Virus record (IMG/VR): IMGVR_UViG_3300044591_001457
Location: 1-25,868 of that record
DNA length: 25,868 bases
Reading direction: 5' to 3' (one strand)
DNA from: a virus
Within the stretch, counting starts at the first letter, position 1. Every line of letters starts with the position of its first letter. The translations under genes were made by a program, and so were the position numbers. Of this stretch, positions 5,937 through 13,647 are shown in pieces. The notes beneath the pieces were generated by a model. It saw only the letters and a list, made by a program, of their open reading frames with translations, was not told where the DNA came from and searched no databases.

Positions 5937-6616
5937 GCGAGTCCACAGCACTGACCACGACCGGAGGCAGCGTGTTTTCCGGCATCCAGGCATTCGAGGA
6001 TGCGCAGCGGATCGCGAAGGCGCTGGCCAGCAGCACGCTGATCCCGCCGCAGTTCCAAGGGCAGCAGGGATTCGCGAACTGCCTGGTGGCGCTGGAGATC
6101 GCCAACCGGATGCGGATGAGCCCGTTCCAGGTGATGCAGAACCTGCACATCATCCACGGCCGCCCGAGCTGGAGCAGCCAGTTCATCATCGGCCTGATCA
6201 ACGGCTGCGGCCGGTTCAGCCCGCTGCGCTACGAGATGACGGGCAGCGGCGACAGCCTCAGCTGCTACTGCGTGGCGACGGAGCACGCCAGCGGCAACGA
6301 CCTGAAGGGTCCGGCCGTGAGCATGGCGATGGCGAAGAAGGAAGGCTGGGCGACGAAGAGCGGCAGCAAGTGGCTGACCATGCCCGAGCTGATGATCCGC
6401 TACCGCGCCGCGGCCTTCTGGGGTCGGCTGTACATCCCCGAGCTGCTGGTCGGCATCCAGACCGAGGAGGAGGTGGTGGACGTGGAGCCCGTGACGGTGC
6501 GCCCGGCCGAGCCCGCCCCGAAGTCAGCGGTGGAGCAGCTGAACGCGAAGATCAAGCAGCCGGCGGCGGAGCAGGTTGATGTGGTGGAGGCAAGCGATGC
6601 AGATGAAATCTTCTGA
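5933..6616 (+). CDS. RecT-like single-strand annealing protein (227 aa)
   Basis: It should bind single-stranded DNA and promote annealing in phage recombination. The segment CLVALEIANRMRMSPFQVMQ (about 49-68) followed by NLHIIHGRPSWSSQFII is typical of the RecT family in phages. A second conserved part, GWATKSGSKWLTMPELMIRYRAAAFWGRLY, lies at about 138-167. The C-terminal third is low-complexity and acidic and ends DADEIF, resembling the acidic, Phe-terminated tip of SSB. The ATG at 5933 overlaps the upstream stop. Longer forms read through the exonuclease gene and are rejected. Confidence 0.85.
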   Translation: MSESTALTTTGGSVFSGIQAFEDAQRIAKALASSTLIPPQFQGQQGFANCLVALEIANRMRMSPFQVMQNLHIIHGRPSWSSQFIIGLINGCGRFSPLRYEMTGSGDSLSCYCVATEHASGNDLKGPAVSMAMAKKEGWATKSGSKWLTMPELMIRYRAAAFWGRLYIPELLVGIQTEEEVVDVEPVTVRPAEPAPKSAVEQLNAKIKQPAAEQVDVVEASDADEIF

Positions 6617-6827
6617 GCCCGGATACCTGCAACCACGCGAGCTGGCAGCCAGGTGGCGAGGTGTCGTCACGCTGAGCACGCTCGACAACTGGCGCAGCCA
6701 GAACCGCGGCCCGAGGTTCGTGAAGATCGGAGGCCGTGTCCTGTATCCCGTCGCTGAGGTGGAGGCCTACGAGGCTCGAAACCTGCGCGGGATGCCCAAC
6801 AACCCACCTACCCAACCGAGACCATGA
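6597..6827 (+). CDS. HTH DNA-binding protein, AlpA/excisionase-like (76 aa)
   Basis: A winged-helix MerR/excisionase-type fold is suggested by YLQPRELAARW (helix-turn), TLDNWRSQNRGPRFVKIGGR (recognition helix and wing) and VLYPVAEVEAYEARN. Proteins of this pattern act as excisionases or small regulators. It overlaps the RecT end by about 20 nt and shares ATGA with the next gene. A second ATG at 6603 is an alternative start. Its position 6 kb from the integrase is unusual for an excisionase, so a regulator role is also possible. Confidence 0.75.
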   Translation: MQMKSSEPGYLQPRELAARWRGVVTLSTLDNWRSQNRGPRFVKIGGRVLYPVAEVEAYEARNLRGMPNNPPTQPRP

Positions 6828-11570: not shown

Positions 11571-11756
11571 ATGCAGTACATCCTCCGCATCGGCCCATGG
11601 CACGTCGGGCCGTTCGCCACCCACCTCGGTGCGCAGCACTTCGCCGAAAGCCACGGCTGCGACGACTACACCCTCATCCCGCTGGACGATCCGGCTGAAG
11701 CACCGGGTCGCATTCACCGGCTCAGAATGGCAGCACTCCGCCACCCAGCCATCTGA
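11571..11756 (+). CDS. Small protein of unknown function (61 aa)
   Basis: The sequence opens MQYILRIGPWHVGPFATHLG and continues with a helix AQHFAESHGCDDYTLIPLDDP, giving a compact beta-alpha-beta unit of a kind common in phages. The tail is basic. The ribosome site is weak. Its stop TGA overlaps a CTG codon that opens the frame of the next protein. No family is recognised. Confidence 0.5.
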   Translation: MQYILRIGPWHVGPFATHLGAQHFAESHGCDDYTLIPLDDPAEAPGRIHRLRMAALRHPAI

Positions 11757-11797
11757 AGCTCACGCTCTCCGCTGACCTGCTCCAGCAGGCGCAGGCC

Positions 11798-12337
11798 GTG
11801 TCCGATGCGCGGCATCGCAACCGCTTGCAGGCCGGCTCCCGCGATCACAGCTGCGGCATGGCGTCCGATGCCACCAACCTGCTCGGCGCCGTCAGTGAGA
11901 TCGCCCTGCACCAGTTTTTCGGCCTGCCGATCGACTGGACCTTCCTCGCCACTGATGCCGGCTTCTGTCAGCCGGATGTGGGCGGTCTCTGGGAGGTGCG
12001 CAGCACCGTGCGCCCCGGCAACAGGCTCTACCTGTTCGAGCGTGAGGTGACGCTGGAGAAGCTCGCCGCACCGTTCGCGTGGATCCTGATCGAAGGCCTC
12101 GGCACGCAGCAGGTGACCTGCCACCTGCAGGGCTGGGCGATGGGATACGAGGTGATCACCCGCGGCGTGCGCCAGCAGATCCAGCGCGCGCCGTCCTTCT
12201 TTCTGGCGAACGATCGGCTGCGGCGGTTCAGCGCACCGGCACCAACCTGGCGCGCGGCACGGTGGTGCGCGAATAGTGCGCGAATGGCGCTCAGAGCCGC
12301 TCCGCCGCCTGCTGGCAGCCCCTGCCTAAGTGCTTGA
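11798..12337 (+). CDS. Probable PD-(D/E)XK-fold phage protein (179 aa from GTG)
   Basis: Residues 29-110 have LGAVSEIALHQFFGLPIDWTF, QPDVGGLWEVRSTVRP, RLYLFEREV and PFAWILIEGLG, the layout of a restriction-endonuclease-like fold: a helix with Glu (E34), then D60, then E66-V-R68. The usual Lys of the ExK motif is Arg here, so catalysis is uncertain. GTG at 11798 is the first ordinary start, but the frame is open from 11699 and upstream residues (LKLTLSADLLQQAQA) look like protein, so a CTG start at 11753, overlapping the previous stop, is possible. The last 35 residues are Pro/Arg-rich, and the reading frame there crosses the left arm repeats of the attachment site. Confidence 0.6.
   Translation: MSDARHRNRLQAGSRDHSCGMASDATNLLGAVSEIALHQFFGLPIDWTFLATDAGFCQPDVGGLWEVRSTVRPGNRLYLFEREVTLEKLAAPFAWILIEGLGTQQVTCHLQGWAMGYEVITRGVRQQIQRAPSFFLANDRLRRFSAPAPTWRAARWCANSARMALRAAPPPAGSPCLSA
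12266..12287 (+). repeat. Left arm-type repeats of the attachment site
   Basis: TGCGCGAA occurs at 12266-12273 and 12277-12284, 11 bp apart. The full 22-bp block is repeated identically at 12517-12538, right at the integrase start. The block lies 66 bp left of the tRNA-Phe core. The interpretation as integrase arm sites is inferred. Confidence 0.65.
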
Positions 12338-12352
12338 TCTCTCTGGAGGTTT

Positions 12353-12397
12353 TGGTGCCCAGGGGCGGAATCGAACCACCGACACTGCGATTTTCAG
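12353..12397 (-). other. attP core: tRNA-Phe(GAA) 3' fragment
   Basis: Read on the minus strand, the segment runs from an anticodon loop CTGAAAA (anticodon GAA) through TCGCA, GTGTC, a perfect T-arm GGTGG-TTCGATT-CCGCC, and CCTGGGC-A-CCA. This is the last 45 nt of a bacterial tRNA-Phe including the encoded CCA. Beyond 12397 the tRNA match ends, because the 5' half of the anticodon stem is absent. Ending exactly at the anticodon loop is typical of phages that integrate into tRNA genes with tyrosine recombinases and restore the 3' end of the gene. CTCTGGAG (12341-12348) and CTCCAGAG (12402-12409) flank it as a perfect inverted repeat. Confidence 0.85.
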
Positions 12398-12484
12398 CCG
12401 ACTCCAGAGGCCTCACGGCGGTTCACGGAATCTCACTAAAGGTCTGATTCTGCGCTGCTTTTCCGGTTGACCTGTTCACGCTTG

Positions 12485-12535
12485 TTCGCGCAAGATCCGC
12501 CCCGTTCGCGCAAATCTGCGCGAATAGTGCGCGAA
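12485..12535. repeat. Right arm-type repeats of the attachment site, beside the integrase start
   Basis: TTCGCGCA occurs at 12485-12492 and 12505-12512, 20 bp apart. Its complement TGCGCGAA occurs at 12517-12524 and 12528-12535, 11 bp apart. These four right-hand copies and the two on the left straddle the tRNA-Phe core. The last copy lies next to the integrase ribosome site (GGAGAGG), so bound integrase could limit its own expression. Confidence 0.7.
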
Positions 12536-12546
12536 TGGAGAGGGGC

Positions 12547-13647
12547 ATGGCGAAGGAGTGGCAGGCTGATCGGAAGGTGCCCGGCCTAGGGCTGATGGTG
12601 CTCGATTCCGGGGTCCGCACCTATTACGTCCGCTACCGCGAGCCGAGCGGCAAGCAGCAGCACCACAAGATCGGACGGGCTGGCGTGATCAGCCTCACCA
12701 CCGCCCGCGAGGAGGCGCTGAAGCTGCTCGGTGATGTTGCCCGCGGCATGGCGCCGACCACCGCGCGCCAGCAGCTCAGGCGCAGCCCGACCATGCAGCA
12801 GCTGTTCGAGCGGCTCGATGCCGAGCACTATCCGAAGCTGCGGCCGAACACCGCCACCGGGTACCGCGTCCTCTGGCGCCGCCACATCTCGCCGCGTCTA
12901 GGGAGCAGCAAGGCCGCGACCATCACCAGCGCCGATGTGATCGACCTGCTCGGCAAGCTGCCGCGCATCCAGGCGAACCGCACGCTGGCGGTGCTGCGCA
13001 AGGCCTTCAACCTGGCGGAGCTGTGGGGCATCAGGCCGCAGAACACCAACCCGTGCCACAAGGTCACCACCGGCAACAGCGAACGCAAGCGGCGCCGCTA
13101 CCTGACGCGCGAGGAGCTCCAGCGGCTGCTGGCGGCCTTGGATCGCTTCGGCATTACCCGCGTGCGCTGGCGGTTCGCGCAGCTGATCCGCCTGCTGCTG
13201 CTCACCGGCTGCCGCGTCTCAGAGATCAAGGATGCGCGCTGGGAATGGGTGCAGGGCGCTGTGCTGGTGGTGCCGGCCGATTGCCACAAGACCGGACAGG
13301 ACGGCAGCGATCGCCGCGTGCAGCTGCCACCGCAGGCGCTGCAGGTGCTTGAGGAGCTGCGCGCCAAATCGAACAGCGAGTGGATCATCCAGGGCGATGG
13401 CGATGGCCACCTGATCGGTTACCACCGGATGTGGGCGCAGCTGCTGGAGGCCGCCAAGATCGAGAACCTCCGGGTGCATGACCTGCGGCACAGCTTCGCC
13501 AGCCTTGGCCTGAGCGCCGGGCTGAGCCTGCCTCAGATCGGTGGTCTGCTCGGCCACGCCAGCCCGCAGACCACGCAGCGCTATGCCCACCTGATGGATG
13601 AGGCCGCTGCTGGCATGGCCGCGAAGGTGGCGGCGCTGATCCGCTAA
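12547..13647 (+). CDS. int: Tyrosine-recombinase integrase, P4-like (366 aa)
   Basis: This is the site-specific recombinase that inserts and excises the phage. Residues about 1-70 (VPGLGLMVLDSGVRTYYVRY and following) match the DUF4102-type arm-binding domain of P4-family integrases. Residues about 80-165 are the SAM-like core-binding domain. The catalytic set is complete: R223 in GCRVSEI, K248, H311-x-x-R314 in HDLRHSF, H337 in LLGHAS, and Y346 in RYAHL. The ATG at 12547 is preferred because GGAGAGG lies just upstream; an ATG at 12535 overlaps that site. A tRNA-derived attachment core and repeated arm sequences lie immediately upstream. Its stop overlaps that of the convergent dCTP deaminase. 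Confidence 0.95.
   Translation: MAKEWQADRKVPGLGLMVLDSGVRTYYVRYREPSGKQQHHKIGRAGVISLTTAREEALKLLGDVARGMAPTTARQQLRRSPTMQQLFERLDAEHYPKLRPNTATGYRVLWRRHISPRLGSSKAATITSADVIDLLGKLPRIQANRTLAVLRKAFNLAELWGIRPQNTNPCHKVTTGNSERKRRRYLTREELQRLLAALDRFGITRVRWRFAQLIRLLLLTGCRVSEIKDARWEWVQGAVLVVPADCHKTGQDGSDRRVQLPPQALQVLEELRAKSNSEWIIQGDGDGHLIGYHRMWAQLLEAAKIENLRVHDLRHSFASLGLSAGLSLPQIGGLLGHASPQTTQRYAHLMDEAAAGMAAKVAALIR

Follow-up and report, generated by a model that had tools for sequence, protein, structure and literature searches.

In phage lambda, the core of attP is flanked by arm sites on either side, the N-terminal domain of the integrase binds the arms, and boxes for a bending protein lie between arm and core. 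In the IntS/TorI system of KplE1, the integrase gene also lies beside a recombination region with arm sites, the target is a tRNA, and intS is repressed through that region (PMC2951348, in the part of the paper available). Actinobacteriophages are known for tRNA-dependent lysogeny, in which a short core goes together with a phage-borne cognate tRNA gene; the accessible part of the report on them describes related integrases that use both strategies, names a Lactobacillus prophage as a case outside the Actinobacteria, and leaves open how widespread the tRNA-carrying way is (PMC10865867). A Sinorhizobium case is described in the available text of PMC11476347, and other Sinorhizobium prophages are given as having no such features in that of PMC12429752. 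Here we analyse a viral stretch of 25,868 nucleotides (IMG/VR record IMGVR_UViG_3300044591_001457; hereafter the window) in which an octamer array and a partial tRNA lie directly upstream of an integrase gene (int). Among the matches listed in openly readable papers, we found no report of this attP family.

The six exact copies of TGCGCGAA noted in the initial annotation are present where it placed them (12266 and 12277 on the plus strand, 12485 and 12505 on the minus strand, 12517 and 12528 on the plus strand), and the 22-bp block TGCGCGAATAGTGCGCGAATGG, said to be identical at the two ends, is an exact duplicate (Table 1). Two stray copies lie outside the array, at 1058 and 13174 on the minus strand, giving a total of eight in the window; shuffled sequences held a mean of 2.14 and a maximum of 7, with 0 of 100 reaching eight. 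Chance clustering was rejected, as 300 dinucleotide shuffles of the window placed at most two octamers in 270 bp, compared with the six observed; any other 8-mer of the window reaches four copies at most in a 270-bp stretch. The 3′ part of a tRNA-Phe, running from the anticodon loop to the 3′ end, does lie between the arms, so that the window has a core flanked left and right by repeated arm sites, as a lambda-type attP does. ARAGORN found no whole tRNA gene in the window, and one genome scan did not find the matching host gene and junctions.

Table 1. Positions of the features of the attachment locus in the window and of whole tRNA genes in related loci.
Feature	Position or locus	Strand	Basis and remarks
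Candidate excisionase, small HTH_17-like protein	6576..6827	+	Pfam score 23.0, below cut-off of 27
Left arm, tandem octamer pair 11 bp apart, in 22-bp block	12266..12287	+	Exact copies; present in relatives
Left IHF-like box GATCAAGCACTTA	12327..12339	-	One mismatch to WATCARNNNNTTR; consensus match; relatives
Core, tRNA-Phe 3′ part, anticodon loop to CCA	12353..12397 (approximate)	-	Sequence reading; no complete tRNA
Three GTGA repeats, 10-bp spacing, candidate excisionase sites	12413..12436	-	Sequence reading; columns partly conserved
Right IHF-like box AATCAGACCTTTA	12437..12449	-	No mismatch to WATCARNNNNTTR; consensus match; relatives
Right arm octamer 1	12485..12492	-	Exact copy; relatives
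Right arm octamer 2	12505..12512	-	Exact copy; missing in a subtype of relatives, for example L008
Right arm, tandem octamer pair in the second copy of the 22-bp block, adjacent to the integrase ribosome site	12517..12538	+	Exact copies
Tyrosine integrase, arm-binding, core-binding and catalytic domains	12547..13647	+	Pfam, alignment and model; ORF listed from 12535
Whole tRNA-Lys just outside left arm, short core	L007, L038, L039, L047, L083, L095, L100, L107, L108, L112		
Whole tRNA-Met just outside left arm, short core	L096		

The int product has matches above the Pfam cut-offs to PF13356 (Arm-DNA-bind_3), PF14659 (SAM-like core-binding) and PF00589 (catalytic), and R223, K248, H311, R314, H337 and Y346, which we take to be the catalytic R-K-H-R-H-Y, are invariant in 16 aligned integrases. 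These domains and residues identify it as a lambda-type arm-binding tyrosine integrase. Its structural model (mean pLDDT 81.7, pTM 0.49) gave lambda integrase (1z1b) as the top fold match over 367 columns; the relative placement of the domains is uncertain because TM-scores are only about 0.5. A sequence-profile comparison with the PDB returned Xer-type and other recombinases, with lambda not among the matches (E up to 0.001). ATG 12547, which is preceded by GGAGAGGGG, is more likely to be the start codon than the second ATG at 12535. With this start the last octamer, which ends at 12535, abuts the ribosome site without covering it, and the earlier statement that the rightmost copy reaches that site is right about adjacency but wrong if overlap is meant.

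Viral contigs were scanned by integrase protein and by an exact 20-mer, one scan contributing 80 of 121 matches. This yielded at least 126 loci with a related integrase, or at least 74 after repeats were merged, a figure that includes the window and a few double fetches. Both arm pairs were present within one mismatch in 63 loci (43 non-redundant at 90%). Eleven of the 74 were dropped for want of both pairs: L014, L130, L064, L035, L044 and L061 are cut or partly fetched, L049 has a deletion, and L118, L120, L124 and L133 have a variant motif or spacing. For a motif-independent count we used protein-found loci only, of which 4 of 92 were too short upstream, and merged repeats to 62 distinct upstream stretches. 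The octamer arrays that had been expected beside related integrases were found there, with both arm pairs in 58 of the 62 (at most one mismatch per copy) and at least four exact octamers in 56. A related integrase was also present in the fetched stretch of 33 of 39 viral contigs carrying the exact 20-mer (L049 among them holds only an integrase piece joined to the arm, and contig ends cut some), a proportion on which a repeat family unrelated to integration was rejected. In the remaining six, L027 ends inside the core, and L033, L041, L043, L048 and L051 carry the left arm without int.

The usual order in relatives is a tandem pair with 11-bp spacing, the core, one or two inverted copies and a second tandem pair. 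In one subtype the inverted octamer closest to the final pair is missing, and L020 and L110 have no inverted octamer within one mismatch; the full exact array persists at about 53% integrase identity (L023). Across 39 non-redundant attPs with the core in the same orientation, the plus-strand pairs are conserved at 98–100%, partly by construction because they were used for choosing rows; the first inverted copy, which was not so used, is conserved at 95%, unlike most of its flanking columns. Divergent relatives carry other motifs: all five copies read TGCGCCAA in L123, L133 has TGCGCAAA in three of its four pair copies, L118 has a different sequence in both pairs although one inverted TGCGCGAA is left, and L124 has mixed pair sequences. 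In L123, L133 and L118 the change affects the pairs to the left and to the right of the core alike, which points to one reader protein. The octamer had been thought specific to this integrase; this holds for the integrase family, with the exception of these three members and their different pairs. With an arm-binding domain in the integrase, lambda integrase as the best model match and arms kept in relatives, the reading of the array as an arm-core-arm attachment site stands, and the octamers are very probably arm sites gripped by a lambda-like phage integrase during insertion into a host tRNA gene.

Two IHF-like boxes lie inside the arms, and the GTGA repeats sit between the core and the right box. 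Among the 39 attPs, the right box matched WATCARNNNNTTR without mismatch in 19 and with one in 13 (32 in total), and the left box in 10 and 14 (24 in total), against a background of 0.1% and 0.65% (0.75% together); these boxes, like the distance steps, were noticed before being tested. Arm–arm distances fall into classes of 218–220, 240, 250–251, 260–262 and 272, with steps near one helical turn. Box–box distances of 89, 100, 110–111 and 120 and box–arm distances of 32–33, 43–44 and 53–55 were also observed, these box distances being partly by construction, as the left box was searched within 1 base of positions already seen; the arm–arm distances are free of this. The phase of the five classes gave p = 7e-5 in a test set up after the lengths had been seen and excluding four opposite-orientation attPs, whose distances (226, 236, 238 and 239) are off phase.

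In sequence the window has the arrays, the core and the integrase domains of a lambda-type attP, and relatives keep them; protein binding and bending, the control of excision, the junction with the host and the repression of int are predicted. We are confident that the window holds the attP of a temperate phage, about 270 bp forming an intasome scaffold of the lambda type. In this scheme the integrase N-terminal domain would bind the TGCGCGAA arms, its core-binding and catalytic domains would act on the tRNA-Phe core, and a bending protein at the two boxes would fold the arms back to the core. On integration, the 5′ half left in the host and the 3′ part supplied by the phage would together restore the host tRNA-Phe. 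Excision would probably be favoured by a small HTH protein acting at the GTGA repeats, and int would be repressed by its own product. The bending boxes and excisionase repeats are candidates for their lambda counterparts. The window differs from lambda in its core, a tRNA 3′ part, in its arm sequence, and in having four arm sites as well as the GTGA repeats on the int side. It differs from KplE1 in its arm motif, TAAA being common to all P′ sites there (PMC2951348, available part).

Repression of int by its product may act through the array abutting the int start, by analogy with KplE1, for which autoregulation is demonstrated in the accessible part of PMC2951348; a strict promoter scan found no promoter at the array. 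The HTH_17-like protein, likely the excisionase, was matched in 31 of 36 records. It was missed in S-LBS1, in int-less L033, and in the int-bearing L009, L024 and L047, which at 28–31 kb are shorter than most and perhaps incomplete; int-less L048 gave a weak match (48%).

Four of the six copies lie directly before int and one abuts its ribosome site, an arrangement that would also suit operators for int only, or for another regulator, with recombination needing no more than the core, as for simple tyrosine recombinases; the repressible intS of KplE1 fits this as well. However, the left pair lies beyond the core from int and is kept at stepped distances, and the integrase has an arm-binding domain, so that we consider operators alone very improbable. 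The exact duplication of the 22-bp block and the lone left arm in five integrase-less contigs could alternatively mark the repeats as functionless leftovers, common to relatives by descent. This we find scarcely credible given the conservation of the first inverted copy above most of its flanks and the paired changes on both sides of the core in divergent relatives.

A different proposal accepts a true attP and competes with ours only at the IHF-like boxes and GTGA repeats, which would be sites of HU, a phage factor or a repressor. It draws on the lack of an HU/IHF-family gene in 35 phage records, on an IHF-alpha model that passes its cut-off in only 1 of 14 control genomes, and on the primase and helicase, whose best matches are the Synechococcus phages S-LBS1 and S-H1. 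The boxes nevertheless match the published consensus WATCARNNNNTTR and have the same arm–core position as in lambda, and we lean against this proposal while granting it real weight. The same primase and helicase matches, together with weak tail matches, suggest a cyanobacterial host. Matches of another structural protein were mixed and headed by a Methylophilales phage, none of 36 records contained NblA, and S-LBS1 has no octamer array. One genome scan for a host or close prophage, by two peptide patterns, gave a single distant match (27% over part) and no prophage or attB.

Returning to the lambda-type attP, we compared cores among relatives. They correspond to parts of Phe, Met (CAT), Lys, Asn, Thr, Arg and Gly tRNAs, about seven isotypes as assigned from anticodon-loop motifs, and the distance from anticodon loop to right array is nearly constant in the same-orientation group except in L123. 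The aligned loci indicate that relatives keep the same arm grammar and that the tRNA target has been swapped many times. Across 47 integrases, mean identity for same and different cores was 0.71 and 0.46 in the core-binding domain, 0.71 and 0.65 in the catalytic domain, and 0.79 and 0.66 in the arm domain. Once the contribution of the other two domains was removed by regression, the association with the core remained for the core-binding domain only (0 of 1000 permutations, uncorrected for phylogeny). Three natural chimaeras are the firmer evidence that the core-binding domain follows the core tRNA. L012 has a catalytic domain 98% identical to that of the window but a Met core and a Met-type core-binding domain; L060 (99% to L011) and L071 (93% to L017) are Phe-type, and the switch point lies near int nucleotide 560, at the linker. 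In Met-core attPs (L010, L012, L015 and others) we also observed a GC-rich hairpin right after the tRNA CCA, followed by a T-rich stretch in some (by eye); the hairpin may be a terminator that the phage supplies to the rebuilt tRNA.

With its long core and no short core plus phage-borne cognate tRNA, the window attP is, judged by layout, of the ordinary tRNA-rebuilding type. Relatives with arm distances of 218–220 have short cores that look like little more than the anticodon stem-loop, and 10 of 10 non-redundant ones have, 4–9 bp outside the left arm, a whole tRNA gene whose isotype matches the core (Lys in nine, Met in one). No whole matching tRNA was found beside the left arm in 29 longer-core same-orientation attPs (for L017, coverage to the left of the arm was limited to 94 bases). 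In 40 whole records, a tRNA above the Rfam cut-off occurred in 10, all 10 of the short-core type. By gene order, the short-core relatives have the layout of tRNA-dependent lysogeny and share the whole cognate tRNA gene with the actinobacteriophages, whereas the window itself is long-core (PMC10865867, accessible part). The tRNA of Fionnbharth has its own promoter according to the same text; that of the relatives adjoins the left arm, where the promoter of the broken host gene might read into it. The novelty lies in finding the layout in this attP family and in the position of the tRNA gene, rather than in a first case outside the Actinobacteria.

We see an even chance that the family is a modular platform, in which about seven tRNA targets are served by one arm grammar kept in helical phase, and a phage changes target by exchanging its core jointly with the core-binding domain of its integrase. 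Some members would have switched to a short core and a whole tRNA gene driven by the promoter of the broken host gene, and the boxes would serve a bending protein from hosts that are not known for IHF, perhaps cyanobacteria. In this natural series the arm sites, the spacing, the core and the integrase domains each vary independently, so that the target-setting domain can be read from natural variation and put to the test by domain swaps. The family, from phages other than actinobacteriophages, also places both ways of sparing the host tRNA side by side.

In the int-less contigs compared (L033, L041, L043 and L048), the left arm is fused with DNA that lies near and after the int 3′ end; the left-arm-only contigs have apparently lost the integration module by deletion. 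The window has about 500 bp (11757–12265) between a small ORF (11571–11756) and the left arm, and in relatives such as L033 and L048 the left arm directly follows an ORF matching this small ORF. Farther afield, the integrase of Aeromonas phage ST4 (35.7% identity) is accompanied by the pairs GGCGCCC/CGCGCCC and TGCGCCC/TGCGCCC, and 0 of 500 mononucleotide shuffles produced similar pairs. ST4 (L135, 749–1108) follows the plan of the short-core relatives: a tRNA-Lys is followed by the left pair, a short core, GTGA repeats, the right pair and the integrase. Among plasmid-borne integrases, 3 of 657 matched records were inspected for repeats; one had none, and two have an 11-bp tandem 9-mer before int that is unlike TGCGCGAA in sequence (L137, 789–808; L138, 788–807), suggesting that the tandem pair may be general in this integrase group.
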